A DNA stretch of 56,483 nt, from NCBI GenBank assembly GCA_015232555.1, contig JADFZJ010000025.1, positions 1-56,483 on the forward strand, given 5' to 3'. The notes below the pieces were generated by a model, which made no database searches, was not told the DNA's origin, and worked only from the letters and a program-made list of their open reading frames with translations. A program made the position numbers and the translations under genes. The DNA is from Desulfamplus sp. Lineage in GTDB: Bacteria > Desulfobacterota > Desulfobacteria > Desulfobacterales > Desulfobacteraceae. How positions within the stretch are numbered: the first letter of the stretch is position 1; each line of letters starts with the position of its first letter. Below are positions 17,170 through 53,372 of the stretch, one piece after another.

Positions 17170-17559
17170 TTAGTAAACGCCCAATAAATTAAGGGCAAGA
17201 AGTAGCAACCCAACGCAGGCAACTCGTTTTACAACCAATGGACTTACACGCTTTGCAATCTGAGGACCTATATAACCTCCAAGAAGTGCTGCTGGAAACA
17301 TGGCAAGAAAAAATATCAGGTCAAAGTTGCCAAATTGATAATGACGCATTGTACTGATGGTTGTGTTGAAAAATATAGCAAGAAGAGAACTTCCTACAAC
17401 AAGATACATTGGAAGACCGAGTGCAACACTCATAAGAGGTACCATAAATGGTCCTCCTCCAAAGCCGAACATTGATGCCATAATTGCTATAAGAAAACCG
17501 CCTAAACACCCTACCCACATATTAACCTGAAATTCCTGACCCCAGAAATTGACTTTCAT
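17170..17559 (-). CDS. Half-size TauE/SafE transporter subunit (C-terminal half)
   Basis: A 129-residue protein with about four helices and one TSUP repeat motif, MFGFGGGPFMVPLM. Full TSUP proteins have two such halves; this one matches a single repeat. AAGGAG precedes its ATG, and it lies 122 bp downstream of a gene whose C-terminus carries the other half, so the transporter is probably assembled from two polypeptides. The intergenic gap, separate RBS and polar tail of the upstream protein argue against a simple frameshift. Expression is likely shared with the gene at 17682. Confidence 0.82.
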   Translation of the reverse strand: MKVNFWGQEFQVNMWVGCLGGFLIAIMASMFGFGGGPFMVPLMSVALGLPMYLVVGSSLLAIFFNTTISTMRHYQFGNFDLIFFLAMFPAALLGGYIGPQIAKRVSPLVVKRVACVGLLLLALNLLGVY

Positions 17560-17681: not shown

Positions 17682-19100
17682 TTATCTGCCCGTAGATGCT
17701 TCCTGAGCACGTTTCTTGAACTCGTTGAGAATTGACTGCTCTTTTTTGTTCTTTGCAATATAACCAGGAGTCGTCTGCCAGAACATCAGAGCTGCAAGCA
17801 CTATGAGTATCCAGCCAAAAGCAAACTTGAACTGGTCGAGTGTAATCATCTCGGTAAGTTTAGGACCGATAAAACCACCGAGCAACATGGCACATCCAAT
17901 ACCAATGCCAAGTTTCCAGCTTATAAATTTAATTTTGGAGTAGTTGAAGATGCCACTGCCTTGAGAAAAGAGAACCGTAGGGGTAACAGTTCCAGCAACA
18001 ATTGTGTGAGGCAGAGCAGGAAAAAGTGAGATAAGAAGCGGATTCATTATAAAACCGCCACCAGCACCCATTAAAACTCCAAATATTGATACCGCAAGAG
18101 TCAAAACAAAAGGATATATAAGATTCATGCTTGTTCCAGCGTTGCTCATGTAAACTGTAGGAGGGCTGATTTTATTTTCAAATGTTGCGGGCTGGCTCTT
18201 TAAATCTTTGGAAGATACAGCCACGATTTTATATTGACCAGGTGAAACCCCTTTACGAACTTTGATCTCTGCTGTGTATGAACCATCTGGAGAGACATTT
18301 ACTTCTGCAGCAATAACATTGCCAATAGTTCTAAAACGGGCTTTAACCAACTGCATGGAGCGTTTTTTGTTCTCTTTTGCATCCATCTGGTCAAGAAGTT
18401 TTCCACGGCTTCCAACAATACTCGCCATCAAGGTCGCCTGATATCTATCAATCTTTGCAACTGCTGGAATACTGTAAGCGACATCTGCACCAAGCTCTTT
18501 GAGAAGTGCGGAGTAACTCCATTTATTCCCCTCTTTTTTGGCTGCATCAATTTTTGGCTGCATCTCTTTTGGAACAAAAATCTTGTAATATGCTGGCATC
18601 TCTTCTGTAATATAAAATATATACGGAATTTTGCCTGTCTCTTTATCTTTTTTGCTGTCAAAGAGATTTGATTTTACCGTGTGCTCTGCTGCCCACACCT
18701 CAAGATAGACAGGCATTCCAGCAGTAGCCTGACCGCTTACCTTAATAGTTCCCCCATTTTCAATTGTGGTTTTATCAATGTTTATTGTGGGTGGGGCTGC
18801 TGTTGCTGCTTTGGCTGCATCTACTGCTTCTGTTATTGCTGATTTAGCTGTATTTATTGCATCTGTTGTTACTGCTTTAGCTGCATCGACTGCTGCTGCG
18901 GTTGCTGCTTTAGCCGCATCTACTGCTGCCGCTGTTGCTGCTTTGGCTGCATCTATTGCTTCTGTTGATGTAGTAGTATCTTTGGACGCAGCCGATGTGT
19001 CAGGCTCTCCCTCTGCCATTGCTGTAAATGGAACTGCTACTGTAAACAGTGCAATGCACGTCATAGTCATAACAATAAACCTTGAAACAATTTTCTTCAT
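17682..19100 (-). CDS. Periplasmic-domain protein with half TauE/SafE transporter
   Basis: A 472-residue fusion. Parts in order: signal peptide (1-29, ending TAMAEGE); an Ala/Thr/Val-rich tract of near-identical units (AAKAATAAAVD, about 45-105), probably a helical stalk; a beta-rich region (~105-320) with Ig-like features (IENGGTIKVSGQATAGMPVYL, and GSYTAEIKVRKG); then four helices with the TSUP motif VLMGAGGGFIMNPLL and a basic C-terminal tail. The membrane half pairs with the protein at 17170. A periplasmic module could capture or gate the anion. The ATG follows TAGGAG. The repeat tract also opens a long antisense frame, which is a shadow. Confidence 0.85.
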   Translation of the reverse strand: MKKIVSRFIVMTMTCIALFTVAVPFTAMAEGEPDTSAASKDTTTSTEAIDAAKAATAAAVDAAKAATAAAVDAAKAVTTDAINTAKSAITEAVDAAKAATAAPPTINIDKTTIENGGTIKVSGQATAGMPVYLEVWAAEHTVKSNLFDSKKDKETGKIPYIFYITEEMPAYYKIFVPKEMQPKIDAAKKEGNKWSYSALLKELGADVAYSIPAVAKIDRYQATLMASIVGSRGKLLDQMDAKENKKRSMQLVKARFRTIGNVIAAEVNVSPDGSYTAEIKVRKGVSPGQYKIVAVSSKDLKSQPATFENKISPPTVYMSNAGTSMNLIYPFVLTLAVSIFGVLMGAGGGFIMNPLLISLFPALPHTIVAGTVTPTVLFSQGSGIFNYSKIKFISWKLGIGIGCAMLLGGFIGPKLTEMITLDQFKFAFGWILIVLAALMFWQTTPGYIAKNKKEQSILNEFKKRAQEASTGR

Positions 19101-22520: not shown

Positions 22521-24665
22521 TCAGTGCATTTTTTTTATTGCACAAGTTTCACACCATTCAACAGCCAACGCCTTCTCAACATCAAGCAGAATCCTTACTC
22601 TCTCACCAGCCTTTGCCATTCCAATAACTGCCTCTGTATCTAAAGATGCTCCAAATTTTGGGTTTGAGTCAATATCATCACTTTTAACATTAATAACTTC
22701 AGAGACAGAATCAACGACTACACCGATATGGACATTGTGGCTGTTGCGTTCCGATGGCACTTCAACAACAAGAATACAGGTTTTGTCAGTGTATTCAACA
22801 CTCTCCATGCCAAATTTTATGCGAAGGTCCATTACAGGAATCACCTTACCCCTTAAATTTATAACGCCTTTGACATATTTAGGTGTTCTGGGTACGTGAG
22901 TAATTGCTGCCATGCCAATAATTTCTTTCACATTTCTAATACTTATCCCATACTCCTCAGATGCAAGACAAAAAGTGAGATATTTACCCCCTTGAGCTAC
23001 AACTGACTCACCATCAACTCGCTCAGGCTTAACCTCTTCAGAATTAACATTGCTGGTATTGACAGACTCTGTAGTTATCTGTGCGGCATCGACAGACTCC
23101 GTAGTTATCTGTGTGGCATCTGTGATATTATCAAACTGGGCAAATGCTCTGTTTAAAATTTTCAATATATCTTCCTCTGAAGAGTGAAGAACAGAGGGTT
23201 TGTAATCAGCAAGCCCCATATCACAGGAGTTATCGGCAAACCTTAAATCTACAAATTCGTCAATATTTACAGCACTTCCTATTCCCATCTCTTTGACCAT
23301 ATATTGCTGCATAGTATCAAGATCAGCTACCACAGGATATAGATCATCTGTGGTTATACCGTTGGGAGCTGTCAGAACTTTTTTTAATATGGGAGCTGTC
23401 AGACCAACTGTTCGATCAGGATCAAGAAATTGAACAGCTATCTGTGCTGCATCATCAGGGTTATCCGCAATAAATTTACCTGCTTTAACCAGCAAGCGGG
23501 TTAATTCAAACATAGCATCTGTGTATTTATCTATAAAATCTTTCTGCATCACAACCGCACAGCAAGGATGATTTTCCCATAATTCGCCAGAAAGAAACTG
23601 ACAATCTGCAATACCAGATTGAACTGCCAAACTTCCAATTGGTTCTGCAACCATAAAGCCACTGTAATGTGAGTTTTTATTAATAAATTCAGGCATATTT
23701 AAAGGTGGAGTAACTTCAAATTCCATATCATATTGCTCGCCCTTGCTCATTGAGGGGTTAAGACCTGCCCTGCTTAAAAAAAGGTGAGAGAGTATATGAT
23801 GAACAGACATTTTATGGGGAATCAGAAAAGAGCTGTTTCTAAAAAAAGCCTGCAATGGAGTATCTTCTTTATGTTTATCATTATCTTTGCGTGTATCAGC
23901 TTTTGTATTGATATTGTCTTTTGAACGTGTATTATCTTTTTTCTGGGTTGTCCTGACAAAAATACTGCCGTTTTTGTGGCTCAACATTACAAGTTTAATC
24001 GCTGTTCCAACACTGTAAAGGTCTAATGCAAGCGGTGCAAGAATGCAGGCTCCATCCACAACACCCTGCTCAAGTGCTCTTGCAACAGGATTCCATCCCT
24101 GCATACAGACAAGCTCAAGTTCAAAATGGTTAGCCGTAAGCTCCTCTTTGTCTATAAGATGTTTTAAAACGCCCATCACTAAATGGTCAGTAATCTGAAT
24201 ATGGGCAATTTTAATACGAACCTTTCCTGATGGTGCGATTCTCGGAATTGACTCTATCTCTTTAAACTCATCTGCACTGATACCAAATGCTTGATTAAGA
24301 GTGGATTTAAGCTCATCATCAGCAAACGGTTTTACAAGGAATCCTGTAACACCCGCATCAACTGCCTGCTTTTCATGTCTTTTATCTGCCTGACCCGTTG
24401 CCATTATGAATGGAATAGTATTAAATTTATTACTTGCCCTTACCCAGATTAAAAGCTCAAGTCCGCCTTTTTTAGGCATGTTCCAGTCGCTTATAATTAG
24501 ATGGATACCCTGCTCTTTCTGAAGTATATGGATAGCTTCATCTCCATTAGCAGCCTGCACAATATCTGTATATCCAATTTTTTTTAGTGTATGAATTTCA
24601 ATTTGACGCATGGTACGGTCATCTTCTACCAGAAGAATTTTCAAATTTTTAGGAATACCAGACAT
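22521..24665 (-). CDS. Receiver - NasS/NrtA-like ligand domain - CheW fusion
   Basis: A 714-residue soluble protein. Residues 8-125 are a receiver (Asp60 in IISDWNMP, Lys112 in VKPF). Residues ~148-470 resemble the NrtA/NasS/NMT1 solute-binding family: CMQGWNPVARALEQGVVDGA, ILAPLALDLY, GFMVAEPIGSLAV, ELWENHPCCAVV. There is no signal peptide, so like NasS this domain would sense a ligand in the cytoplasm. Residues 562-705 form a CheW domain (VINLRGKVIPVMDLR). A charged insert (241-270) and a linker with two copies of AQITTESV separate the modules. AAAGGAG precedes the ATG. It probably couples a cytoplasmic metabolite to the neighbouring CheA. Confidence 0.85.
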   Translation of the reverse strand: MSGIPKNLKILLVEDDRTMRQIEIHTLKKIGYTDIVQAANGDEAIHILQKEQGIHLIISDWNMPKKGGLELLIWVRASNKFNTIPFIMATGQADKRHEKQAVDAGVTGFLVKPFADDELKSTLNQAFGISADEFKEIESIPRIAPSGKVRIKIAHIQITDHLVMGVLKHLIDKEELTANHFELELVCMQGWNPVARALEQGVVDGACILAPLALDLYSVGTAIKLVMLSHKNGSIFVRTTQKKDNTRSKDNINTKADTRKDNDKHKEDTPLQAFFRNSSFLIPHKMSVHHILSHLFLSRAGLNPSMSKGEQYDMEFEVTPPLNMPEFINKNSHYSGFMVAEPIGSLAVQSGIADCQFLSGELWENHPCCAVVMQKDFIDKYTDAMFELTRLLVKAGKFIADNPDDAAQIAVQFLDPDRTVGLTAPILKKVLTAPNGITTDDLYPVVADLDTMQQYMVKEMGIGSAVNIDEFVDLRFADNSCDMGLADYKPSVLHSSEEDILKILNRAFAQFDNITDATQITTESVDAAQITTESVNTSNVNSEEVKPERVDGESVVAQGGKYLTFCLASEEYGISIRNVKEIIGMAAITHVPRTPKYVKGVINLRGKVIPVMDLRIKFGMESVEYTDKTCILVVEVPSERNSHNVHIGVVVDSVSEVINVKSDDIDSNPKFGASLDTEAVIGMAKAGERVRILLDVEKALAVEWCETCAIKKMH

Positions 24666-24885: not shown

Positions 24886-25308
24886 ATGAAGATTCTTTTT
24901 GTAGATGACGATTTAATGACCCATGCAGTTATACAAGATATACTCAAAGATTGGGATTTAACCATTGCAACTTCAGCAGAAGAGGCTCTGGATAATTTTC
25001 CTGAAGGTTATGACTTAATTGTTTTAAGTGATATTCACATGCCCGGAATGGGGGGAATTGAATTTTTGCGTGAAATAAAGAGAAAATATCCATACGTTCA
25101 GGTGATTATGGTCTCTTCAACCGAGGATACCAGAAATCTTTTAGAAGCCTATGAAGCTGGAGCTAATGACTTTGTAGTAAAACCTTTTGACTGCAAAGAT
25201 ATTATTAAGGCAATTAATAACACCATTGAGAAGAACAAAAGATGGAAAGATGCACTTGGACAGCTCTATCTTCAAAAAAACAAGAAGGTAAAAGTTTATA
25301 ATGATTGA
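24886..25308 (+). CDS. Single-domain response regulator
   Basis: A 140-residue CheY-like protein: acidic pocket DDDLMTHAV, phosphorylated Asp in LIVLSDIHMPGMGG, switch Ser in IMVSSTED and Lys in VVKPFD. A short basic helix follows (NNTIEKNKRWKDAL) but no output domain. AGGGCAG precedes the ATG. It is divergent from the receiver/CheW fusion and convergent with the PAS/GAF kinase. It could be a phosphate sink or the output of the CheA at 28378. Confidence 0.9.
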   Translation: MKILFVDDDLMTHAVIQDILKDWDLTIATSAEEALDNFPEGYDLIVLSDIHMPGMGGIEFLREIKRKYPYVQVIMVSSTEDTRNLLEAYEAGANDFVVKPFDCKDIIKAINNTIEKNKRWKDALGQLYLQKNKKVKVYND

Positions 25309-25483: not shown

Positions 25484-27703
25484 TTATAAAATAGTAATGA
25501 CAAGATAAGTTCCAGTCGATTCTGATGTTTTCATCTCTATATCCCACCCTTGACTCTTTGCTAACAGTTTTGCACTGTATGTCCCAAGACCTGTCCCCTT
25601 TGGCTTGCCGCTGGTAACATATTTATCAAAAAAACGTTCCCTAATATCTGAGGGCACTGCTCCTTGATTGTGAATAGTTACTCTGATTGAAAGGTTACAA
25701 TGCGTGGCAAGAGAGTCAGATGTAACGAGATTAAAAAGAGGTTCAATAACAATATTTACTGTCTCTTTGCAAGGTGATGCTTCAACTGCATTGATAATAA
25801 GGTTTGAGAAGACAGAAAATGCAAGTAACCTTTCGCCATTAAACTCCATCTTTTCAATCGTCTCAATAGAAAATCTGTCAGTAAAAAATTTAATGTCCAA
25901 TCCATCAGTCTTATTATCAACTGAAAGTTTAATAGAAATCTCTTTCATGTCGCATATTGAGGTTGTATTCAATATGCACTGTTGGAGCACATTGACTAAA
26001 TTAAACCTGCTTGAAGTGTATTTATATGTACCCATTTCAATATGATACATGGTCAGGGATAAATTTATCATATCGAGCATGTTTCTACCTGCATCCGCAA
26101 TGAGCTTAAGATACTTTTTCTGAGCGTCAGTAAGATTATTATCGTTCATCATAACTTGTGGAAATCCGATGATCCCATTTAGGGGAGATTTAAGATCATG
26201 GCGAAGAATACGCTCAACATCCTCCCGAATCTCCTGAGTCTTTTTTCTGGCTGTAATATCTTCTTTAACGCCGACAAAATGGATGATATTACCAGAATTA
26301 TCTTTATCTCCTTGAATAATATTCCCGCCTTTAATGGTTTTATTTTCACGTAAAGGAGAGATGGCTACATTCTCCCAGTAAAGATCACCATTCTTTTTGC
26401 GGTTACAGATTTCACCCCGCCAAACATCCCCTGCAATAAGAGTCTTCCACATTTGTTCGTAAAACTCTTTTGAGTGAAATCCTGATTTAAGTATTCTTGG
26501 ATTTTGTCCTTTTGCCTCTTCTCGTGTGTAACCTGTCAGTTGAGTAAAAAATGGATTTGCATACTCAATATTTCCATCAACATCCGTAATTACGATTGTG
26601 GTTGGAGATGATTCTACGGCATTAAAAAACTTTTTAAGTTCAACTGTCCGCTCTGCTACTGTCTTTTCAAGGTCATCTGCATGTTTACTCAACTGCTCTG
26701 CATGATCAACAGCCTGATTCATCAACTGTTCGGCATGTATTACGACCTGCTGTTGAAGTAAAGTATTTGCAATTGATACAGCTATAATAGATGCAAGAGA
26801 CTGTAAAAATGTTGACTGCATTGCAAAGTTGCGTTCATGGCAAGAACCTACTCCAACTACTCCGATAAGCTGCTCTCTGTTCATAAGTGGAATAGAGGCA
26901 TAAGAGTGGATACCTGCCATTTTACACTCACTGTTTGTACACCTTTTATCTTTGTGGAGGTTTAGAGAAAATATGGGATTTGCATCTCTTGCAGCAATAC
27001 CGCAAAGACACTCTCCAACATTTAGGACAGCTTTCTGAGGCTTTGTGAATATAGGAACATTATCGCTTCGCTTTACAGCCTGAAGCCGCATCTGATTATC
27101 TTCAAGCAGATAAATAAGAGCAAGATCAGATGCCAAAGTATTCATAAGTTGGTTTAAACCAGAGTCAATGATCTCATCAAGAGAGACGTTCATTGAGACA
27201 GATCGACTCATCTGATTGATTGACTCAAGTTCTGCCATACGATTTTTAAGGTTCTCTTCATCCTGCTTTCGGTCAGTTATATCATCATAAATTGCTACTA
27301 TTTCACCTGTAGGGAGTTTGTAAATATAGTTTTCAACTAATAGAGTTATGCGTTCGTCCTGATAATTTGCTACAGGATGAAGTTCTGCTATACCTGTCCG
27401 ATATACCCGCTGAAATACCTTAAAGAGTCCTATCTCAATAACGCCTGGAAATACCTCTTGGACACTTTTACCAATTACATCTTCACGGCTGATAAGACTT
27501 GATATCTCTGCTGCCCTGTTAAAATCTTTGAAAATGAAATCCTGACCTTCATTTAGAGCCTCATATACAGCCATGCAGCTTGTCATACCGTCAAATACAT
27601 ACCGATAATTGGCTTCAAGAGCGGCATTCTGTTTTTTCAGAGTTACTATCTCATCTGTTAATGCCGATATGATCGACATATTGTTGATATCTGCGGCAGA
27701 CAT
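25484..27703 (-). CDS. PAS-GAF-PAS sensor histidine kinase
   Basis: A soluble kinase of 739 residues: PAS (~30-150), GAF (~165-320, containing CLCGIAARDANPIF and HKDKRCTNSECKMAG), a coiled coil (~325-355), PAS/PAC (~360-490, ITDVDGNIEYANPFF), then His in ILRHDLKSPLNGIIG, N box FSNLIINAVEAS and G2 box GKPKGTGLGTYSAKL. The usual DxGxG of the G1 box reads HNQGAVP. There is no receiver and no membrane segment. GGAGG precedes the ATG. It is divergent from the receiver at 27895 and convergent with the one at 24886; either may be its substrate. Confidence 0.9.
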   Translation of the reverse strand: MSAADINNMSIISALTDEIVTLKKQNAALEANYRYVFDGMTSCMAVYEALNEGQDFIFKDFNRAAEISSLISREDVIGKSVQEVFPGVIEIGLFKVFQRVYRTGIAELHPVANYQDERITLLVENYIYKLPTGEIVAIYDDITDRKQDEENLKNRMAELESINQMSRSVSMNVSLDEIIDSGLNQLMNTLASDLALIYLLEDNQMRLQAVKRSDNVPIFTKPQKAVLNVGECLCGIAARDANPIFSLNLHKDKRCTNSECKMAGIHSYASIPLMNREQLIGVVGVGSCHERNFAMQSTFLQSLASIIAVSIANTLLQQQVVIHAEQLMNQAVDHAEQLSKHADDLEKTVAERTVELKKFFNAVESSPTTIVITDVDGNIEYANPFFTQLTGYTREEAKGQNPRILKSGFHSKEFYEQMWKTLIAGDVWRGEICNRKKNGDLYWENVAISPLRENKTIKGGNIIQGDKDNSGNIIHFVGVKEDITARKKTQEIREDVERILRHDLKSPLNGIIGFPQVMMNDNNLTDAQKKYLKLIADAGRNMLDMINLSLTMYHIEMGTYKYTSSRFNLVNVLQQCILNTTSICDMKEISIKLSVDNKTDGLDIKFFTDRFSIETIEKMEFNGERLLAFSVFSNLIINAVEASPCKETVNIVIEPLFNLVTSDSLATHCNLSIRVTIHNQGAVPSDIRERFFDKYVTSGKPKGTGLGTYSAKLLAKSQGWDIEMKTSESTGTYLVITIL

Positions 27704-27894: not shown

Positions 27895-28326
27895 ATGATA
27901 GATGACCAGAAAAAAGCACATATTTTAATTGTTGATGATGAAAAGCACATTCAGGAGATGCTTTCTCGTAATTTCAGGTTTGAAGGGTATAATGTAACGA
28001 CTGCCGGCAATGGAGAAGATGCGCTTGAGATTTTAAAGAAGCATCGCATAGAAGTGGTTATTTCAGATATCAAAATGCCTGTCATGGATGGAATCGAGCT
28101 TCTTAAAAGAATCCGCAAAGATTACCAGATGGTTCAAGTTATAATTATTACTGGCTATGTTACTATGACAAGCCTTCTTGATGCCTTTCGTCATGGAGCA
28201 TACACATGCGTTTTTAAGCCTATCAACGATATGAAGGAGTTAGACGATGCTGTAAGACGCTGTGTTGAATATCTTAAACACTGGCAGAAAAAACTGCTGG
28301 AACTGCAATCCATGAAGATACAATAA
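27895..28326 (+). CDS. Single-domain response regulator upstream of cheA
   Basis: A 143-residue receiver: VDDEKHIQEML acidic pair, Asp in VVISDIKMPVMDG, switch Thr in IIITGYV, Lys in VFKPIND. A C-terminal amphipathic helix ends it; no output domain. It precedes the CheA gene by about 50 bp on the same strand, an arrangement typical of CheY-like partners. Confidence 0.9.
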   Translation: MIDDQKKAHILIVDDEKHIQEMLSRNFRFEGYNVTTAGNGEDALEILKKHRIEVVISDIKMPVMDGIELLKRIRKDYQMVQVIIITGYVTMTSLLDAFRHGAYTCVFKPINDMKELDDAVRRCVEYLKHWQKKLLELQSMKIQ

Positions 28327-28377: not shown

Positions 28378-30459
28378 ATGGAAGAGTATGATATTGATCC
28401 AGAAGTTCTTGCAGGTTTTATTGACGAAACTATAGAAAATCTTCAAGCTGCGGAGCAGATGTTCATTCATCTTGAAGAGAATCCTGATGATATTGAGATT
28501 GTCAACGCTATTTTCCGCCCAATCCATTCGCTTAAGGGGACATCTGGTTTTTTTGGGCTGATAAAAACCAAAGAGCTTGCCCACAGCATGGAGAATTTGC
28601 TTGATGCTGTCAGAAAAGGGCAGAAAAAAGCGACAAAAGAGGTGGTAAACGCACTGCTGCCCGGGATTGATCAGCTTAACGTTATATTTCAAAATGTCCG
28701 TTCAGGCGAAAATGAAATTAGAGATCAAGAGCAGTTAGAAAAATATGAAAAGATTCATAAACGGGTAGAAGATATTTTATCTCATAGCGATTTGCTATAT
28801 GTAATATCAGATAGAGAGGGAGAGCAATTAAAAGAGCGGCTATTAACAGAAAAAGGATTAGCTGCACCCGTTTATGATGAAACCTCATACGAACCTCCTG
28901 ATCTTCTTGGAGATATTATACAAAAACTCAATTTTATCCGCCCAATTGTTTCAGCAGATGATTTACAGATAATTGATGCTGCTATGGAAGTGCTTTTCAA
29001 AATGAGTGTAGAAAATGAGGCTCAAATAGAAGAAGAGCTGGATAAAATAGAGGAATTTGAATCAAAAATTACTTCAAGGACACCTCCTGACGAAAAAATT
29101 TCTCCTAAAACGACTTCTGAAATAGAAAGCTCTTTAGAGACACCTTCTGAACCTATAAAACCTAACAACAAAGACGATAGACGTTCAGAAGACAGAAGAG
29201 CAGGAGACAGGCGATTCGGAGATAGAAGAAAAGGTGACAGGCGGACAGAGCGAAACCTTGAAGCCGATAAAACAATGCGGGTATCTGAAAAGAGCATAGA
29301 CTCTTTTCTTGAATATGTTGGTGAGCTTGTTGTTGTTGAAGAGATGTTCAACTATCTTCAGAAAAAATTTGCATCACTCTCATTGGATCAGAATATTGCA
29401 AAGAACTTTAAACGAGTTATTGAGACATTCAGCACCCTATCAGACAGTCTTCGCAACAGCATTCTTGAGATAAGAAGTGTGCCAGCTCAGGCACTGCTTC
29501 AAAAAGCACCAAGAATTATACGCACTGTTGCTGATGATGCAGGAAAAGTTGTGGATGTAACTATTGAAGGAGAGAATATCAGGATTGATAAAAGCTATGT
29601 TGAACTTCTTGATGCTCCTTTGACACATATTGTAAGAAATGCAGTTGACCATGGTATTGAGCCTCCTTCTGAGCGTATTTCTGCTGGCAAGTCTGAAAAG
29701 GGAAGTGTAAAAATTACGGTTCAAGAGAACAGAGAAAATATTGAGCTGATTGTCTCAGAAGATGGGCGAGGTTTGAATCTGCCTGCAATAGCCGCAAAGG
29801 CAGCCGAAATGGGACTTATCGCCCGCGGTCAAAAATTGGATGAGAATAAGATAATAGATATGCTCTTCATGTCTGGAGTCTCTACTGCCAAAGAGGTTAC
29901 TGATGTATCAGGACGGGGAGTCGGAATGGATGTAGTTAAAAAAAATATCGATTCTGCTGGAGGTTTTATCAATGTTGAGACAAGAGAAGGACACGGCACA
30001 ACATTCAAGATCACGCTTCCCAAAAGTGTAAGCACCCAGATTGTTGACGGTTTTTTGGTCAAATCTGGTAATGAAACTTATGTTCTGCCAATGGAGATTA
30101 TCGGAGAGTCGTTTGTTCCTGATAAAAAAGATATAAGCACTGTAAGCGGGGGCAAAGGGGAAATGGTGCTTCGCAGAGGTTTGCTCATGTCAGTTGTTCA
30201 TCTGTCAAAGGTTCTTGGAATGGATAATTGTGCTGATATATCAGAACCAATAGATAAGGTGATGATAACCATTGAGATGGGAGAAAAAAATTATGCACTT
30301 TGTGTTGATGATATTCTTGGAGTTCAGAAGGTTGTAGTCAAACATGTAGAGGCTCTGCCTGTTGAGAGAGACTGTTTTGAAGGTGCTGCAATGATGGGAG
30401 ACGGAAGCGTTGCCATGATTATCTCTGTAGATGGTCTGAAAAATATGGCAGATTTTTAA
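28378..30459 (+). CDS. cheA: CheA-type chemotaxis histidine kinase
   Basis: A 693-residue protein. The HPt domain (~5-105) has His50 in IHSLKGTSGFFG. A variable linker follows with a basic repeat (DRRSEDRRAGDRRFGDRR, about 266-295) in place of a clear CheY-binding P2 domain. Next come the dimerisation helices (~305-385), HATPase (~390-530: N box HIVRNAVDHGIE, G1 VSEDGRGL, G2 GRGVGMDVVK) and a CheW-like domain (~540-690). It belongs with the receiver at 27895 and the receiver/CheW fusion at 22521. No CheR or CheB was seen in the window. Output could be taxis or another pathway. Confidence 0.93.
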   Translation: MEEYDIDPEVLAGFIDETIENLQAAEQMFIHLEENPDDIEIVNAIFRPIHSLKGTSGFFGLIKTKELAHSMENLLDAVRKGQKKATKEVVNALLPGIDQLNVIFQNVRSGENEIRDQEQLEKYEKIHKRVEDILSHSDLLYVISDREGEQLKERLLTEKGLAAPVYDETSYEPPDLLGDIIQKLNFIRPIVSADDLQIIDAAMEVLFKMSVENEAQIEEELDKIEEFESKITSRTPPDEKISPKTTSEIESSLETPSEPIKPNNKDDRRSEDRRAGDRRFGDRRKGDRRTERNLEADKTMRVSEKSIDSFLEYVGELVVVEEMFNYLQKKFASLSLDQNIAKNFKRVIETFSTLSDSLRNSILEIRSVPAQALLQKAPRIIRTVADDAGKVVDVTIEGENIRIDKSYVELLDAPLTHIVRNAVDHGIEPPSERISAGKSEKGSVKITVQENRENIELIVSEDGRGLNLPAIAAKAAEMGLIARGQKLDENKIIDMLFMSGVSTAKEVTDVSGRGVGMDVVKKNIDSAGGFINVETREGHGTTFKITLPKSVSTQIVDGFLVKSGNETYVLPMEIIGESFVPDKKDISTVSGGKGEMVLRRGLLMSVVHLSKVLGMDNCADISEPIDKVMITIEMGEKNYALCVDDILGVQKVVVKHVEALPVERDCFEGAAMMGDGSVAMIISVDGLKNMADF

Positions 30460-37495: not shown

Positions 37496-37620
37496 CTTTA
37501 CTCCCGATTAAATCTTTCTAACTTTACTCTCATAGTTGTTTTTGTCTTGATATTATGGACAATTCAAATTATTCATTATAATAAATTCTGTAAGCAATTG
37601 TAAGCAATATTGAGGTGCCC

Positions 37621-40410
37621 ATGTTTAAATATAATATAAAACTTAATTTTTTCTATAATATAGTTGTATCGCCTTCATTTATCTTTTCCATTTTGATTAT
37701 TCTGCTGTCAGATGTCTCTTTCACTGCTGCGGCAAATTCAGAAGAGAGTGTTGTAAAACCCCAAAATCATTTAAAAGCAGATCAGACTCAAACCCCAAAA
37801 TATACAGAATCGGGTGGGACTAAAACCCCAAAAATAATCAGTTCTGCAAGCGAACTTGACTACCCTCCGTTTGCCATTGTCCGAGCTGACGGCACTGCAG
37901 ATGGTTTTTCTGTTGAACTGCTTAAAGCTGTTACAAAAGCAGTTGGACTTGAGGTCAATATAACTGTAGGACCATGGCATGAACTCAAGGAGCGTCTTAA
38001 AAACAGAGAGATTGATGTACTACCTCTTGTAGCCTATTCAAAGGAACGGGAGAAAATATATGACTTTTCTGCCCCATATTTGAGAATGAGCAGTATTGCA
38101 GTTTTTGTGCGTAAAGGGGAGAGTTCAATTCATGGTTATGCTGAACTAAAAAACAGAGAAGTTTTAGTTATGCGTGGAGATACTGCCCATGAATATGCAG
38201 TCAAAACTGGAATTTCTGACAAGCTGATAGTAAAAGATACCTTTGAGGAGGCGATGCTTCTTCTTTCAAAAGGAGAGCATGATGCTGTAATTATCCAGCA
38301 GTTAGTAGGGCTTCAACTTATTAAGAAGCTCGGGATATCCAATGTTGTCAATGTAAAGGCTTTTGAGGAGACAAATCTTAAACCAAATATAAAAAAACTA
38401 CCATACCCCCAAATATCACAGAGTAATCAAACAACGTCAGACAGTCAAATAGCTTTTAATAAAGCAAATCAAGAGTTTGAGCAGAAATTTTGTTTTGCAG
38501 TTCAGGAGGGGGATCATCTCCTTTTAGGACTTCTTAACGAAGGGCTTGCTATTGTGTTCGCAAATGGAACATATAATGAACTTTACAATAAATGGTTTGC
38601 TCCTATCCTTCCACAACCGCCTATTCCAATTACACTTATTCTTAAATATCTGCTCTTTATCGTCGTTCCATTAATGCTTGTTCTTGCAATTGCAGGTATC
38701 TGGTTTTTAAAAAGAGAAGTTGCAAGAAAAACAGAGAGTCTTATGGATGCAATGAAATCACAGCAGCAAACAGATACACAGTATCGAACCTTGTTTAATA
38801 AAATGGTTGACGGCTTTGCTCTCCATGAAATTATCTGTGATCAGTATGGAAAACCTATGGATTTCCGTTTTCTTTCTGTTAATCCTTCATTTGAAAGGAT
38901 GAGCGGGTTGAGTTCGTCTGAAATAACTGGAAAAACTATACGTGAAATTCGACCAAATATAGAATCGTATTGGATTGATACCTATGGACATGTTGCTCTG
39001 ACAGGAGAAGGCACTACATTTGAATATTATTCAAGAAGAATGAAACGCCATCTTAATGTTACTGTATATCAGCCTCAGCCTATGCAGTTTGCATCTATTT
39101 TTGAAGATATTACAGAGCGTAAACTTGCCAAAGAGAAAGAAGAAAGGCTCAAAACTCAACTTGAGCAGGCTCAAAGAATGGAGTCTATTGGAACATTGGC
39201 AGGAGGTATTGCCCATGATTTTAACAACATTCTCTCTCCAATAATTGGTTATACAGAAATACTTATTGACGATGCCCGCAATATTGTAATTGATAACGAT
39301 AACTCTGATAAACCTGCCAATATTAACTATTTTAATGACATAAAATGTCTCGATGAGATATATAAAGCTGCTTTAAGAGCTAAAGAGCTTGTAAAGCAGA
39401 TACTTACATTCTCACGCCAGAGCGGCACAGCGATACAAATCATCAAAATACAGCCTATTATAAAAGAGGTTCTAAAGCTCATTCGCTCTACAATACCAAC
39501 CACCATTGAGATAAGACAAGATATCAAAAGCGAATGCGGACATGTAAAGGCTGACCCTACCCAGATTCATCAGATTGTAATGAATCTTGTTACCAATGCC
39601 TTTCACGCCATGGAAGATACAGGCGGAGAGCTTACAATCAACCTAAAAGAGGTTGAGCTTGGTCCTTATGATTCTGATTCTGTGGCATATCTGCTTGATG
39701 CGTATCGCAATATGCCAGATGGAGATATTGCGTCCTCGGCTGGAGACTATGCCTGTCTAATTCCCGGAACCTATGCCTGTTTAGCGATTGAAGACACGGG
39801 CGTTGGTATTGATTCTTCGCTTATACCAAAAATATTTGATCCTTTTTTTACTACAAAAGGGGCTGGCAAAGGCACGGGACTTGGGCTTTCAGTGGTGCAT
39901 GGTATTGTAAAAGGGATGAATGGCACGATAAATGTTTACAGCGAACCTGGCAAAGGAACAAAATTTAATATCTATCTGCCTGTGGTTAAAATTTCATCTG
40001 AAGATAACTCTTTGGAGACGCAAAAGGAGATAATAAAAGGAACGGGCAGAGTTCTTCTTGTAGATGATGAGAAGTCAGTCGCTGAAATGGAGAAAAAAAT
40101 GTTAGAACGTATCGGATATGAAGTTGTTTCAAGTGTGAGCAGCATTGAAGCATTAGAGGTGTTCCGTACAAATCCTAACAAGTTTGATCTCGTTATCACA
40201 GATATGACAATGCCAGTAATGGAAGGGGATAAATTGGCAGCAGAGATGATTAAAATCAGACCAGATATTCCCATACTGCTCTGCACAGGATTTAGCCATA
40301 AAATATCACAGGAAAAGGTTGATGCTATTGGAATCAAAGGAATTTTGATGAAGCCAGTTATTATGAAAGACCTTGCAGAAAAAATAAGAACAGTGCTCAA
40401 TGCAGGTTAA
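37621..40410 (+). CDS. Hybrid histidine kinase with periplasmic solute-binding sensor
   Basis: About 929 residues from the ATG at 37621, chosen because GAGG lies 5 nt before it; an in-frame GTG at 37615 would add two residues. Layout: signal segment, a type-3 solute-binding domain (~75-330, with YPPFAIVRADGTADGFSVEL and DVLPLVAYSKERE) interrupted by a polar insert near 260-285, a transmembrane helix (~340-362), PAS (~385-500), a HisKA/HATPase core (His in GIAHDFNNILSPI, G2 [10 protein letters not shown]) and a C-terminal receiver (Asp in LVITDMTMPVMEG). The ligand is probably an amino acid or similar small molecule. No adjacent DNA-binding regulator was found. Confidence 0.93.
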   Translation: MFKYNIKLNFFYNIVVSPSFIFSILIILLSDVSFTAAANSEESVVKPQNHLKADQTQTPKYTESGGTKTPKIISSASELDYPPFAIVRADGTADGFSVELLKAVTKAVGLEVNITVGPWHELKERLKNREIDVLPLVAYSKEREKIYDFSAPYLRMSSIAVFVRKGESSIHGYAELKNREVLVMRGDTAHEYAVKTGISDKLIVKDTFEEAMLLLSKGEHDAVIIQQLVGLQLIKKLGISNVVNVKAFEETNLKPNIKKLPYPQISQSNQTTSDSQIAFNKANQEFEQKFCFAVQEGDHLLLGLLNEGLAIVFANGTYNELYNKWFAPILPQPPIPITLILKYLLFIVVPLMLVLAIAGIWFLKREVARKTESLMDAMKSQQQTDTQYRTLFNKMVDGFALHEIICDQYGKPMDFRFLSVNPSFERMSGLSSSEITGKTIREIRPNIESYWIDTYGHVALTGEGTTFEYYSRRMKRHLNVTVYQPQPMQFASIFEDITERKLAKEKEERLKTQLEQAQRMESIGTLAGGIAHDFNNILSPIIGYTEILIDDARNIVIDNDNSDKPANINYFNDIKCLDEIYKAALRAKELVKQILTFSRQSGTAIQIIKIQPIIKEVLKLIRSTIPTTIEIRQDIKSECGHVKADPTQIHQIVMNLVTNAFHAMEDTGGELTINLKEVELGPYDSDSVAYLLDAYRNMPDGDIASSAGDYACLIPGTYACLAIEDTGVGIDSSLIPKIFDPFFTTKGAGKGTGLGLSVVHGIVKGMNGTINVYSEPGKGTKFNIYLPVVKISSEDNSLETQKEIIKGTGRVLLVDDEKSVAEMEKKMLERIGYEVVSSVSSIEALEVFRTNPNKFDLVITDMTMPVMEGDKLAAEMIKIRPDIPILLCTGFSHKISQEKVDAIGIKGILMKPVIMKDLAEKIRTVLNAG

Positions 40411-40471
40411 AATTTATATCATTACTAACTTAAAAAGCAGTATATCTTAAATAAGGATTAAAAAAGATAAA

Positions 40472-42373
40472 ATGCATAAAAACAAAACCCTTTCTGCTGA
40501 TGCAGCAGTGGCAAAAATTAAAAATGGAAGCAGGGTCTTTATCGGCTCAGGGTGTGGAGAGCCTCAGCATCTAATACATGCTATGGTTCGCAATCACAAT
40601 ATTCAGGATGTGATGATTTTTCAGATGCTTTCATTCACACTTGCCCAATATCTAAAAGATGAGCATTTTTTTAAAAGATTTGCACTTAAACTCTTTTTTG
40701 TGACACAGCCGATGCAGCAGGCTGCTTTTGAAGGTAAAATTGATTATATACCTGCCTATCTATCTCAAATACCCTATTTTTTCAGAAGCAATCAGATTGG
40801 CATTGATGTAATACTTCTCCAGATAAGCCCGCCGGACAGATTTGGAATTGCAAGTCTTGGAGTCTCAGTAGATGTTACTCTTCAAGCTGTCAAAAGTGCT
40901 AAAATGGTTATAGCACAGGTCAATCCTAAGATGCCTCGAACTCATGGAGACGGCTTTATCCATATTGATGATATTGATTATATAGTCCCATTTGAAGAGG
41001 ATATTTTAGTAAATACAATTGAGCCTGTTGATGAGAAAGTTGCAAAACGAATTGCAATGTATGTTAATGAGTTAATTGATGACGGAAACACGCTTCAGGT
41101 TGGATATGGAAATATTCCTTATGCCATTCTTAAATATATTGATAATAAAAACGATCTGGGCATCCATACACACATGATTTCTGATGCTTTTATCCCGCTT
41201 TTTGAAAAGGGAATTATAAATAATAAAAAGAAGAATTTCATGGTAGATCGTGCGGTTACAACATTTTGCATGGGTTCAAGAGTTGCTTATGATTATATTG
41301 ACAACAATATTCAGTTCTACTTTGGGACAGCAGATTTTGTAAACACACCGGGTATTATAGGCAGAAATGACAATTTTATATCAATAAGTTCTGCTCTTGA
41401 GGTTGATCTGACGGGTCAGGTCTGTTCTGACTCTGTAGGGAGGCAGTTTTTCAGTGGCACTGGTGATCAGTCAAATTTTATAAGAGGTGCAACTCTTTCA
41501 AAAGGGGGAATTTCCATTATAGCTCTTCCGTCAACCGCAAAAAATGGTCAGGTTTCACGAATAGTCGGAAATTTAAGTGCTGGGGCTGGTGTTGCAACTC
41601 TCAGAGCTGATGTCAATTTTGTCATTACTGAATACGGTATTGCCCAGCTTAAAGGCAAAAGTATTTACCAGAGGGTGGTTGAACTTACTCAGATTGCACA
41701 TCCTGCTTTCAGGGAAGAGCTGATTGAAGCTGCTAAAAAAAATCACTATATTTTCGCTGATCAACTCCCCCCTCTTTCAGAAGACCTCATTTTTCTTGAA
41801 GATTACAAGAGCCAGATTGAACTTAAAAATGGCAAGTCCATGCTTGTAAGACCGCTTTTGCCTTCAGATGAGATAGCCTACAGAAACTTTTTTTACTCTT
41901 TAAAAGAGGAGACCATCTATCTTAGGTTTTTCCATTCAATTACAATCTTCTCTCGTAAAATGGCTCAGGAACACTGGGCTAATATGGATTATCGACACTT
42001 TATCTCTCTTATTGGTCTTGTTAGAAATAGAGGTAATAATGAAGTTATGGCTCTTGGTAGTTATGCAGCTTATGATAACAGTGATTACAATGATTGTGAA
42101 AAATGGGCTGAAGTTGCTTTTGTTGTGCGTGAAGACTTTCAAGGTCAAGGGATCGCTGTCTATCTTATGAACGAGCTTGAAAAGATAGCATCTAAAAACG
42201 GATACATAGGATTTTATGCATCTGTTCTTGCTGAAAACAGAAAAATGGTAAGAGTTTTCCAGAAATGTTACCCGAATCTTAAATCAGATATTAAAGATAA
42301 TGAAATTGATGTTTGGATGAGATTTGAGCCAGCCACTCATATTGTTGATCAAAAAATAGGAGTTCTAAAATAG
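40472..42373 (+). CDS. Acetyl-CoA hydrolase/transferase - GNAT fusion
   Basis: A 633-residue protein. Residues ~1-435 are a class I CoA-transferase of the acetyl-CoA hydrolase / 4-hydroxybutyrate CoA-transferase type (LLQISPPDRFGIASLGVSVD, GYGNIPYAIL, VITEYGIAQLKGKS, AHPAFREEL). Residues ~445-620 are a GNAT acyltransferase domain (VRPLLPSDEIAYRNFF, VVREDFQGQGIAVYL, VLAENRKM). The catalytic Glu normally in GIHTEMxSDG is His234 here (GIHTHMISDAF), so a covalent glutamyl-CoA intermediate is unlikely unless another Glu acts. The fusion itself is known in anaerobic proteobacteria. The RBS is weak and spaced (AAGGA, 11 nt). Confidence 0.88.
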   Translation: MHKNKTLSADAAVAKIKNGSRVFIGSGCGEPQHLIHAMVRNHNIQDVMIFQMLSFTLAQYLKDEHFFKRFALKLFFVTQPMQQAAFEGKIDYIPAYLSQIPYFFRSNQIGIDVILLQISPPDRFGIASLGVSVDVTLQAVKSAKMVIAQVNPKMPRTHGDGFIHIDDIDYIVPFEEDILVNTIEPVDEKVAKRIAMYVNELIDDGNTLQVGYGNIPYAILKYIDNKNDLGIHTHMISDAFIPLFEKGIINNKKKNFMVDRAVTTFCMGSRVAYDYIDNNIQFYFGTADFVNTPGIIGRNDNFISISSALEVDLTGQVCSDSVGRQFFSGTGDQSNFIRGATLSKGGISIIALPSTAKNGQVSRIVGNLSAGAGVATLRADVNFVITEYGIAQLKGKSIYQRVVELTQIAHPAFREELIEAAKKNHYIFADQLPPLSEDLIFLEDYKSQIELKNGKSMLVRPLLPSDEIAYRNFFYSLKEETIYLRFFHSITIFSRKMAQEHWANMDYRHFISLIGLVRNRGNNEVMALGSYAAYDNSDYNDCEKWAEVAFVVREDFQGQGIAVYLMNELEKIASKNGYIGFYASVLAENRKMVRVFQKCYPNLKSDIKDNEIDVWMRFEPATHIVDQKIGVLK

Positions 42374-42537
42374 AAGTTGGTTCTAAAAATAGAATTAAGT
42401 TTAAATAAAAGATTACATGTCATATTGCATTTTTTATAGTAGTGATTTATACTATTTAGTATTAACTTACCGTAGTTCCTATCATTTTATTTACTTTCTA
42501 CGTCTAATATCTTAAGTTTGCAGCAGAGGCAGGTTAC

Positions 42538-43503
42538 ATGACAGTCTTTTTTTCTATTGTTCAGTCTGTAGGTGTGCTTATTGGTTTAGGGCTTCTTGGA
42601 TTTTGTATTATTGCAAGACGTATGATGCCCGGAAACGCTTTAGCTTTTTTGTCTCCGCTTGTTCTTGAAATTGCCCTTCCAAGTCTGATATTTGTCAGTA
42701 TTGTTCAAAATTTTACGTTAGAAAAATTTCCCAACTGGTGGACAGTACCGCTTTGGTGGATATTATTTACTATTATACTCCTTATAATTACATTACTTTT
42801 TGCATTAATATCAAAGCCTGAAACTCGCAGCGAATTTGCCATAAGCCTCTTTTATCAGAATGGGATTTTCTTCCCTCTTGCCATTATAAGCGGACTTTTT
42901 GGAAAAGACTCTATCTATCTTGTAACCCTCTTTCTATTCATCTCGTTTCATCCCGCCCTTTTTTTCACCACATACAGATTCTTTTTTAAAGATAAATCTT
43001 CTTCGGATCCAGGCTCTGTTAAGCCTATTGACTGGAAAAAGATAATCCACCCAGTTCTGATTATGACCTTGATTGCCCTTACAATTCGACTTTATGGGGC
43101 ACAGGCTATGGTTCCATCGTTTATAGTTTCAGGTTTGTCAATGCTTGGAGCAATGGCTTTGCCTCTTATTATGATAATACTTGGAGGCAGCATATTTGTA
43201 GATTTTCAGAAAAAAGGAACATTTGAGACTGTAGAGGTGATCAAGTTTGTTGTTGTTAAGAATTTTCTCTTTCCAATTGTCTTTCTAATATTACTACTCA
43301 TATTTCGCCCTTCCTATTCTATGGCACTTATTATTTTTCTTCAAAGTGCAGTTCCTCCTATTACAGCCATTCCTATTATTACCGAACGTATGGGTGGAAA
43401 TGCTGCTATAACAAACCAGTTTCTTGTTGCAAGCTATATTGCACTTATAATATCAATTCCTGTGGTATTTTCTCTCTTTTCCAAATATTTTCCTGCACCA
43501 TAG
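42538..43503 (+). CDS. AEC-family transporter
   Basis: A 321-residue membrane protein with about ten helices in two five-helix halves, typical of the auxin efflux carrier (AEC) family that includes malate/malonate carriers. Family-like segments are PSLIFVSIVQNFTLEKFP in the first half, and AMALPLIMIILGGSIF and SAVPPITAIPIITERMGG in the second. A short polar loop lies between the halves (FFKDKSSSDPGSVKPIDWKK). The substrate could be an organic acid. It stands between the CoA-transferase fusion and the solute-binding/Cache gene with 160 bp of upstream sequence and its own promoter presumably. Confidence 0.88.
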   Translation: MTVFFSIVQSVGVLIGLGLLGFCIIARRMMPGNALAFLSPLVLEIALPSLIFVSIVQNFTLEKFPNWWTVPLWWILFTIILLIITLLFALISKPETRSEFAISLFYQNGIFFPLAIISGLFGKDSIYLVTLFLFISFHPALFFTTYRFFFKDKSSSDPGSVKPIDWKKIIHPVLIMTLIALTIRLYGAQAMVPSFIVSGLSMLGAMALPLIMIILGGSIFVDFQKKGTFETVEVIKFVVVKNFLFPIVFLILLLIFRPSYSMALIIFLQSAVPPITAIPIITERMGGNAAITNQFLVASYIALIISIPVVFSLFSKYFPAP

Positions 43504-43588
43504 TTATAAAACTCAATCTAACTAACCCCCGCCTGTATATTGGCTCACAGGTGGTAAATGCAAACAATAAATTAAGAAGAGGATTAAC

Positions 43589-44725
43589 ATGAAAAAGATC
43601 ATTTTATCAGTTTTTATCCTGTCAGTGGCTTTGGTTCAGATTTCATTTTCTGAACAGATGCAATTTGCAATAATTGAGTGGCCCCCATATTCGGGAGAGT
43701 CTGTTAATCAAAAAGGCTTTGTTTCAGAGATAGTTGAAACAGCATGGCAGAGAAGAGGTTATACTACTTCATTAAATGTTTTTCCTATAAAACGGGCTGT
43801 CGCATCTACAAAAGACGGGCTTTATATGGCAATGTTTCCCTATATTCAAGAGGAAGACCTCAAAAACGAGGAGTTTATATTATCTGAACCGTTTGCAGGC
43901 ACTGCTATTGTTTTGTATAGACAAAAATCTGATAAGCCGTTGCAATATACAAAACTTGAAGATTTAAAGGATTATGTATTTGGAACTGTTCTTGGATTCT
44001 CTTACACTTCTGAATTTGATAGTGCCACTTACATTAAAAAAGACACGGCAAGAACAGATAAGCTAAATTTTTTAAAACTTGCAAAAGGCAGAATTGATAT
44101 TGTAATTGCAGATAAATATGTTGCAGATAGTTTATTTAAAAATGAACTTGCAGATATAGCAAACTCAATTGAACAAATTGATCCGCCATTTTCTGTAAGA
44201 CCTATCTATGTGGCTTTTACAAAAAATCATCCTGATTCAGCAAAAATGGTTGAAGAGTTTAATGCTGGATTAAGAGAGGTTAAGAGAGATGGCACACTTA
44301 ATAACATTATGGAAAAATACGGACTCTTTACAATCTCTTCAAAGGCTTATACCCGTGATGAGCTAAAACAGTTTGTAGATAGTGCAGCAAGTTATATACG
44401 AGAAGTTGGGGTGAAAAAGGCATTTGAAGAGTTCAGAAAACCTGATGGAAAATTTACAAAAGGTGAGCTTTATATTTTTGCCGACAATATGCAAGGATTG
44501 AATCTTTCTCACATAAATCCTAAAATGCAAGGTGGAGATCATCACGATCTGAAAGACAAATTAGGATTTGCGTTTATGCAGGAGTTCATAAAAGTTGCTC
44601 AACTTGGCAGCGGATGGGTAGAGTATTGGTTTGAGAATCCTGTAACTAAAAAACTTCAACCCAAAATTTCCTATATTAAAAAAATTAATGACGACATGTT
44701 CATAGGATGCGGTATTTATAAATAA
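43589..44725 (+). CDS. Periplasmic solute-binding - single-Cache fusion
   Basis: A 378-residue exported protein. After a signal peptide (MKKIILSVFILSVALVQISF) there is a type-3 solute-binding domain (~25-245: FAIIEWPPYSGESVNQKGFVS, LEDLKDYVFGTVLGFS). Residues ~265-378 match an sCache_2 sensor domain (EEFRKPDGKFTKGELYIFA, LGSGWVEYWFENP, DDMFIGCGIY). There is no transmembrane segment after the signal, so it is free in the periplasm. It lies 132 bp before a chemoreceptor gene on the same strand and may present ligand to it. GAGGA precedes the ATG. Confidence 0.85.
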   Translation: MKKIILSVFILSVALVQISFSEQMQFAIIEWPPYSGESVNQKGFVSEIVETAWQRRGYTTSLNVFPIKRAVASTKDGLYMAMFPYIQEEDLKNEEFILSEPFAGTAIVLYRQKSDKPLQYTKLEDLKDYVFGTVLGFSYTSEFDSATYIKKDTARTDKLNFLKLAKGRIDIVIADKYVADSLFKNELADIANSIEQIDPPFSVRPIYVAFTKNHPDSAKMVEEFNAGLREVKRDGTLNNIMEKYGLFTISSKAYTRDELKQFVDSAASYIREVGVKKAFEEFRKPDGKFTKGELYIFADNMQGLNLSHINPKMQGGDHHDLKDKLGFAFMQEFIKVAQLGSGWVEYWFENPVTKKLQPKISYIKKINDDMFIGCGIYK

Positions 44726-44793
44726 CAGCTCTTATGCAATAAACATAAGCAGCTATATAGCACACATGACGAATGGCTGCTGCAATCTAAAAA

Positions 44794-44835
44794 ATGAAAA
44801 TAATCATAAAAACAGGCTATTATGATGATTTTCAT
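44794..44835. repeat. 15-bp-arm inverted repeat before the chemoreceptor gene
   Basis: ATGAAAATAATCATA and TATGATGATTTTCAT pair with one mismatch around a 12-nt loop. Lying 22 bp before the chemoreceptor ATG, just upstream of its AAAGGAG, the hairpin could attenuate read-through from the Cache-protein gene or act as an operator. Confidence 0.65.
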
Positions 44836-44857
44836 ATAAATTATTAAAGGAGATAAG

Positions 44858-47729: not shown

Positions 47730-48188
47730 ATGAAGATTGATAATGGACTAAAAAAGCATAATGACTTAAAGTGGGATATCAGGCTGAAGGTGTGGTTTGA
47801 GATAGACGGACATCCAATAATCGGTGATGGAAGGCTTGCAATGCTAAATTCAATCCACCAGAATGGTTCAATAATTGATGCTGCACGGGAAATCGGAGTA
47901 TCCTACAGAAAAATTCGAGGTGCTCTGTGTGACATGGAAAAACATATAGGACAGCCTCTTGTCAAAGCATATCGTGGAGGTGGTCATGGAGGCGGTGCTA
48001 CTCTTACACCGCTCGCACATAAACTGATAGAGGAGTACACAAAGATAAGAAACGGATTTGAACAGGATGTCTCTTCTTATCAACAAGAGGCTTCTTTTAT
48101 GCTACAATCAAACTTGGCTAAAATTTTACCATCGAATGGCAGTTTTTGCCCTTCGCTTAAAAATACAGTTTTAGAAAAAACGATTTAA
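47730..48188 (+). CDS. ModE-like winged-helix regulator, second copy
   Basis: A 152-residue protein. Residues ~16-105 give the ModE N-terminal winged helix: LKVWFEIDGHPIIGDGRLAM, HTH around AAREIGVSYRKIRGAL, and the wing GGGHGGGATLTPLAHKL. As in the copy at 1210 the Mop/TOBE domains are missing, and the C-terminus is a ~45-residue unassigned tail. It is the first gene of the molybdenum-cofactor cluster and could regulate it, but molybdate sensing would need another protein. Confidence 0.87.
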   Translation: MKIDNGLKKHNDLKWDIRLKVWFEIDGHPIIGDGRLAMLNSIHQNGSIIDAAREIGVSYRKIRGALCDMEKHIGQPLVKAYRGGGHGGGATLTPLAHKLIEEYTKIRNGFEQDVSSYQQEASFMLQSNLAKILPSNGSFCPSLKNTVLEKTI

Positions 48189-48273
48189 CATTATAACCTG
48201 TTGAATATCATCTTAATTTGGTGAGCATATCTATGTTTTACAGATACTATTTAAAGATGGGAGAAAGAACATT

Positions 48274-48873: not shown

Positions 48874-48940
48874 TCAGGGGAAAGAAAGTTCAGTCTACTC
48901 TGTAGATAAATAATTTGTCCCAATATATTTTTGCTTAGTA

Positions 48941-48964
48941 ATTTCAATCCAACACTAATTGCAG
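48941..48964. repeat. Second dispersed repeat family, copy B
   Basis: ATTTCAATCCAACACTAATT plus GCAG, matching the sites at 36982 and 53325. It lies in the gap between the FmdE-like and molybdopterin-binding genes. Confidence 0.75.
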
Positions 48965-49021
48965 CTAAGCTGCTTATGTTCTATAAATTTTATATCAATT
49001 TTATTAAATAAAGGAGCGGTT

Positions 49022-50050: not shown

Positions 50051-50085
50051 CTTGAGTTCTAAGTTCCCATTAACAGGAGATTGAA

Positions 50086-52498: not shown

Positions 52499-52504
52499 GA
52501 GTGT

Positions 52505-53290: not shown

Positions 53291-53324
53291 GGCAAATCTT
53301 TAAAAGATTGTTCTTGTTCAAAAA

Positions 53325-53348: not shown

Positions 53349-53372
53349 CGAATCTGCTTAATTCTGAGGCGG

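Follow-up and report, generated by a model that had tools for sequence, protein, structure and literature searches.

The window analysed here, a stretch of 56,483 nucleotides from a Desulfamplus sp. contig (JADFZJ010000025.1), encodes a protein in which a receiver (REC), a solute-binding protein (SBP) domain of the NMT1_2 family and a CheW domain follow one another, in the vicinity of further signalling genes (Table 1). The open-reading-frame list places its ATG start codon at position 24665 of the minus strand. Pfam matches were obtained to Response_reg at residues 10-123 (E 1.2e-22), to NMT1_2 at residues 147-410 (E 3.5e-24) and to CheW at residues 561-701 (E 2.6e-35), all exceeding the Pfam curated cut-offs, and the last of these covers profile positions 1-135 of 138 and represents, by sequence, a full CheW domain. 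The receiver occupies the extreme N-terminus, from about residue 8, which leaves no space for a signal peptide ahead of it, and the protein is taken as cytoplasmic. A preliminary description of this DNA had placed a solute-binding fold without a signal peptide between a receiver and a CheW domain, and this is confirmed by the order of the Pfam matches and the position of the receiver.

Table 1 Features of the proposed sensor gene and its chemotaxis surroundings in the window
Feature	Position	Strand	Basis
REC–NMT1_2–CheW protein, 714 aa	22521..24665	-	ORF list, Pfam, phmmer against PDB sequences
CheW domain, aa 558-703, with E581 and R605	22557..22994	-	Pfam, conservation
Variable linker, 81 residues between A477 and G560	22995..23234	-	Alignment; family median 44
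Solute-binding (NMT1_2) domain, aa 147-477, taken as cytoplasmic	23235..24227	-	Pfam, profile search, conservation
Cys368-Cys369 of the H-P-C-C motif, invariant	23559..23564	-	Alignment
39-aa stretch, aa 240-278, within the binding domain	23832..23948	-	Alignment
Receiver domain, aa 8-127, with invariant E14, D15, D60, T90 and K112	24285..24644	-	Pfam, conservation
Stand-alone response regulator	24886..25308	+	Pfam
PAS/GAF histidine kinase	25484..27703	-	Pfam
Stand-alone response regulator before cheA	27895..28326	+	Pfam
CheA (Hpt, dimerisation, HATPase and CheW domains), likely partner	28378..30459	+	Pfam

A profile built from the binding-domain alignment found its best solved match in the binding protein 3un6 (1e-23), followed by the regulatory domains of NrtC and CmpC (1.9e-12 to 9.3e-12; PDB 8wm7, 9uai and others), NrtA (2g29, 4.9e-11) and CmpA (2i48, 3.1e-6), which supports a periplasmic-binding-protein fold as the prediction for the middle domain. 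In the alignment, 3un6 has the positions of H230, S-x-H, E-P and the CC pair in common with the window protein; unlike the window protein, it was deposited as a transporter SBP and carries neither REC nor CheW. The stretch at residues 240-278 has a family median of 16 residues as against 39 here, indicating a local insertion of about 23 residues.

Relatives of the window protein were collected by scanning genome contigs with the binding-domain alignment, and the best 80 of 222 were analysed. The same three domains in the same order, the architecture check called for in the preliminary description, were found in 74 of these 80, far beyond chance, although the relatives were picked by similarity to the window protein and the fraction should not be read as applying to the family at large. 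As for the remainder, the receiver is a separate ORF in L062, and no CheW was detected in L061, L077, L104, L108 and L116, with L061 running off its contig. By NCBI rank, the 75 CheW-bearing loci fall into Thermodesulfobacteriota (36), Ignavibacteriota (10), Pseudomonadota (3) and "Myxococcota" (15, an unreliable label that is given to titles such as Deltaproteobacteria), with one locus each in Latescibacterota, Nitrospirota, Bacteroidota, Chloroflexota and Chlorobiota, phyla represented by single bins in which contamination is possible, and six unplaced loci, two of them from KSB1. REC–SBP–CheW is thus a conserved family, mostly of Desulfobacterota and Ignavibacteriota. The best genome-contig matches of the window protein lie in Desulfamplus bins and Desulfamplus magnetovallimortis, and record titles with a family member include D. 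magnetovallimortis, Desulfonema magnum 4be13 and Desulfatibacillum alkenivorans DSM 16219, which we take to be cultured strains. Closer to the window, the binding domain was matched in 37 of 58 related genomes, and eight of 20 regions examined around such matches carry REC–SBP–CheW (L021-L025, L031, L033 and L034). When 395 genomes were sampled evenly across the phylum, at least 20 (the window's own included) had a REC–SBP match, in frames of 645-734 residues; among the matches listed, best first, the CheW part fell within the same match in the window's own genome and in nine of the other 19, the match in G134 being cut.

Sequence conservation is unevenly distributed along the protein. Over 75 proteins, mean pairwise identity is 0.60 for the binding domain, 0.54 for REC, 0.48 for CheW and 0.17 for the linker, which is 36 to 121 residues long; constraint is thus strongest on the binding domain. 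Receiver residues E14, D15, D60, T90 and K112 are unchanged in 75 of 75 aligned proteins, as are E581 and R605 of the CheW domain, the counterparts of E. coli CheW E38 and R62 in the alignment and presumably important for CheW contacts. With REC and CheW residues intact, the protein might simply be a CheV in reverse, that is, a phosphorylation-controlled coupling protein whose binding fold takes no solute and acts as a protein-interaction or spacing module, and CheV itself is generally known to work with REC and CheW and no ligand domain. A spacer would be expected to drift, whereas here no part is better conserved than the binding domain, and its cleft motifs are nearly invariant and common with those of importer SBPs, and we regard a solute-free module as unlikely.

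The positions in question are T159-D160, W191, P211, H230, G233-S234, P283, S287, H289, E341-P342, W363 and H366-P-C-C369, each 97-100% conserved among 76 CheW-bearing proteins and predicted to line one cleft. At each of them the same residue is the commonest in 12 importer SBPs (10 to 12 of 12), giving a common set of motifs (T-D, W, P, H-x-x-G-S, S-x-H, E-P and W-x-x-H-P-C-C); the importer SBPs differ from the sensor at H161 (Ala) and H284 (Ser or Tyr), among others. The family thereby marks an NMT1_2 subfamily with an H-P-C-C motif. The many invariant histidines together with the CC pair could instead point to a redox or metal sensor, in which Cys368-Cys369 with H230, H284/H289 and H366 would bind metal or form a redox pair. 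A cysteine in place of NrtA Lys269 and the retention of the CC pair in the related solved protein 3un6, which we take to be a Staphylococcus aureus ABC substrate-binding protein deposited with zinc, fit such a sensor. The same CC pair is, however, present in all 12 importer SBPs, where it fits solute capture equally well, and the redox or metal function appears quite improbable.

The nature of the ligand can be approached through NrtA, in which nitrate is contacted by Trp102, Gln155, His196, Gly240 and Lys269 according to PMC13204499. Counted by hand on the alignments, these residues correspond to W191, S234, H289, A340 and C369 of the window protein. Two of the four nitrate-binding side chains are therefore kept (W191 and H289), while Gln155 is replaced by Ser and Lys269 by Cys in 76 of 76 proteins each. 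The preliminary description had invoked NasS as precedent for a nitrate-sensing fold in the cytoplasm, and a NasS-like nitrate or nitrite sensor feeding the chemosensory kinase would agree with the homology to NrtA and NrtC and with the retained Trp and His. NasS itself is reported (PMC3795266) to retain all nitrate-coordinating residues of NrtA, and against this the uniform Ser234 and Cys369 make nitrate unlikely as the ligand. The analogy fails at this point, nitrate is set aside on residues, and a nitrate or nitrite sensor is very hard to credit; judged by the pocket residues, the ligand is probably not nitrate.

The chemotaxis genes around the sensor offer it a plausible partner. The cheA gene of the window lies 3.7 kb from the sensor gene, the interval being taken up by two response regulators with a histidine kinase between them. 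Relatives of the first response regulator are divergent neighbours in five Desulfamplus loci (L041-L043, L045 and L071), kinases related to the histidine kinase occur nearby in four (L041-L043 and L045), and a close relative of the CheA lies near the family gene in L045 (identical to L031) and L071 (identical to L033). The window genome (106 contigs, 3.8 Mb) contains five CheA-type dimerisation domains, 19 methyl-accepting chemotaxis protein (MCP) signalling matches and 16 CheW matches, indicating that arrays are available for docking; two of the MCP matches sit in equally long frames separated by 771 bases, and some of the CheW matches share a frame. In the one-contig genome G249, one copy of the family gene is embedded in the order CheW–MCP–MCP–MCP–(REC–SBP–CheW)–MCP–CheR–CheB–(Hpt-bearing frame)–response regulator–CheD, where the Hpt-bearing frame, read by eye, resembles CheA. 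Across the 75 loci, surveyed with phmmer at E up to 1e-5, CheA was found in five (a sixth match, at 5e-6 in L042, is a hybrid kinase and was not counted), MCP in two, CheX with a stand-alone cytoplasmic SBP after it in two (the CheX of L082 being confirmed by Pfam) and HDOD matches in 10; in L065, 46 bases separate the family gene from a CheD-like gene on its upstream side. In most of the 75 loci no CheA, MCP, CheX, CheW or CheD was found, a count lowered by naive ORF calling and contig ends.

From these observations, the reading we favour, and consider moderately probable, is that the window protein is a CheV-like coupling protein carrying its own cytoplasmic ligand sensor. We infer that its CheW domain would dock it into CheA/CheW/receptor rings, that the solute-binding domain would close on a small cytoplasmic solute, and that closure would change CheA activity, so that behaviour would follow the internal level of the solute. 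Phosphorylation of the receiver, by CheA or by the neighbouring histidine kinase, may tune the effect of closure. Coupling of the protein to a CheA array is very likely, and binding of a cytoplasmic solute is likely; for the predicted contacts of the CheW part with CheA P5 and receptor tips, the che cluster of G249 is indirect support. A direct push from the binding domain to CheW is not obvious because the linker is long and variable.

What that solute might be is suggested by ABC importers. An importer ATPase, an SBP with a twin-arginine (Tat) start and a permease lie directly downstream of the family gene in five of the 75 loci, and in a sixth (L080) the ATPase alone precedes a contig end. 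All 12 importer SBPs adjoin an ABC ATPase and a permease; a twin-arginine-like start was recognised in 10 of them by a simple pattern and in L059 by eye, and that of L030 is without one. A related REC–SBP form without CheW (about 458 residues) shares its operon with an ABC ATPase, a permease, a Tat SBP and a further, stand-alone SBP in which no signal peptide is evident. This arrangement was found in seven loci (L028-L030, L032, L035, L037 and L038), of which L038 is truncated inside REC–SBP. In five of them the adjacent divergent gene is CheD, by Pfam in three of these five, the exceptions being L028 and, from the window's own genome, L038. An importer locus of this REC–SBP type lies on contig C51 of the window genome, with no CheD adjoining. 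In L026 and L027 a stand-alone SBP and REC–SBP occur together, but no importer part or CheD was found there. A family of acidic proteins of 180-280 residues was also seen beside REC–SBP or its cluster in nine loci, including L039 of the window's own genome (examples are L035 10726-11349, L026 6390-6986, L027 8217-9002 and L032 7360-8049); the four of these nine that were scanned gave no Pfam match.

Importer and sensor were also compared at the level of genomes. Orthologues of the Tat SBP (59-72% identity) are present in eight of 27 sensor-bearing genomes. Ten of the 27 belong to the window's genus or order, and all eight orthologues are from these; the remaining 17 gave weaker matches or none. 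Of 27 genomes chosen among those with no listed sensor, none has such an orthologue, and one gave a 30% match. Within the window's genus and order, the majority of the sensor-bearing genomes examined thus have the importer, either adjoining the gene or at another place. As a general rule, co-occurrence is unsupported beyond the window's order (0 of 17), and the distribution makes a shared ligand plausible within the window's lineage. Where, in that genus and order, an importer adjoins the sensor gene or occurs elsewhere in the genome, the solute sensed would probably be what the importer brings in; for the window's lineage, we put the chances that sensor and importer have the same solute at about even.

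Other outputs appear on the same sensor. Directly before genes matching CheA and CheW, L036 7452-9770 (G056:C141) encodes REC–SBP–HATPase_c_2–STAS, which would represent another output on it, and Pfam identifies L104 521-3703 as a DUF3369-containing hybrid histidine kinase that ends in REC and the binding domain. In a first tree, of 113 rows, made by a quick search with L061 and L077 left out and long branches present, all REC-bearing SBPs grouped together with L062 (SH-aLRT 100). The REC–SBP forms were interspersed among REC–SBP–CheW in the free tree, and holding the CheW forms together was not rejected (AU p 0.109, on 97 of the 113 rows, with the twin-arginine SBPs and six further rows left out). 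We tentatively suggest that one solute might be read twice by the same type of cleft, outside by the Tat-exported importer SBP and inside by REC–SBP sensors. The outputs of the latter would, in this still speculative scheme, be CheW, HATPase–STAS, a histidine kinase or none, the last in the importer operon that is often divergent from cheD.

The window protein can be compared with several known systems. CheV consists of CheW followed by REC with nothing between; like the window protein, it combines CheW and a receiver with an acceptor Asp in one chain, whereas in the window protein the order is reversed, with REC first, and a 330-residue binding domain is inserted. The C-terminal regulatory domains of NrtC and CmpC likewise place an NrtA-like domain as regulator on a cytoplasmic protein, the fusion there being to an ABC ATPase as opposed to REC and CheW. 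CheW proteins fused to sensors include CheW-CZB, and by its architecture, with a predicted ligand domain, the window protein fits this broad class. NasS, as described in PMC3795266, is similar in being a cytoplasmic sensor with a solute-binding fold and no signal peptide, and differs in being a separate protein that partners NasT, an RNA-binding ANTAR protein, where the output here is CheW. A further parallel is CheWS of Treponema denticola, described in the portion of PMC10653840 used here as CheW fused to an intracellular CheR-like S-adenosylmethionine sensor. Both proteins place a cytoplasmic ligand domain on CheW, so that sensing runs, or in the window protein would run, via the coupling protein and not a receptor. 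They differ in that the sensor of CheWS, a spirochaete protein, has a CheR-like fold and lies C-terminal to CheW, while no CheR match was found among the Pfam matches of the window protein, and in that this portion of PMC10653840 describes no receiver, versus the N-terminal REC of the window protein. The window protein is a proper member of none of these groups, namely CheWS, CheV, NasS and the NrtC/CmpC regulatory domains.

The statement in the preliminary description that no example had been described holds in part. No description of REC–NMT1_2–CheW was found in searches of open-licence PMC papers, where supplementary figure S10 of PMC10653840 may show the architecture, but sensing through a CheW fusion as such was already known from CheWS. 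The CheWS authors count 30 further CheW architectures undescribed in the literature, and CheWS is one sensor–CheW fusion studied in detail. The present family connects a cytoplasmic sensor of the binding-protein type with chemotaxis and, within one lineage, with an importer, and it makes receptor-independent taxis driven by metabolism open to test. If the speculative scheme of one solute read twice is true, cells would steer by the accumulation of an imported compound, via CheW and without a dedicated receptor.

Neighbouring genes were also considered as clues to the ligand. The FeS (DmsB-like), GltD-like and TauE genes downstream in the window were dropped as candidates, as they have little match near other loci. 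At E <=1e-8, the ORFs of L021-L120 gave no match to the window TauE and FeS proteins and GltD-like matches in four loci (L082, L084, L087 and L107); among L041-L120, the looser threshold of 1e-3 gave GltD matches at six loci and a single FeS match, at L104. No match to these downstream genes was found in the other Desulfamplus loci examined. Genes for DUF169 (COG2043, a family without an assigned function) occur near REC–SBP–CheW in six of the 75 loci (L047, L050, L065, L074, L085 and L095), one of them a Chloroflexota bin, and lie within 80 bases of it in five of the six. A Desulfovibrio cluster containing DUF169 and a TauE-like gene is reported (PMC4001038) to yield nitrate-resistant mutants, and its authors guess at a leaky thiosulfate transporter. 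As a pointer to the ligand, the DUF169 neighbours are a lead only.

Three further features of the window were observed outside the sensor locus. The TauE-type permease appears split on the minus strand into 17170-17559 and 17682-19100, its upstream ORF matching positions 2-113 and its downstream ORF positions 124-237 of the Pfam profile, and may be a broken gene or two half-proteins. A row at 37615-46792 comprises an SBP_bac_3 hybrid histidine kinase, an acetyl-CoA hydrolase/transferase–GNAT fusion, a membrane transport protein, a protein with SBP_bac_3 and Cache domains, and an MCP. The region 47730-53942 is likely a molybdenum cofactor and regulation cluster, with FmdE-like and MoCF_biosynth matches by Pfam and ModE-, MoeA-, MoaA-, MobA- and MobB-like ORFs recognised by eye.
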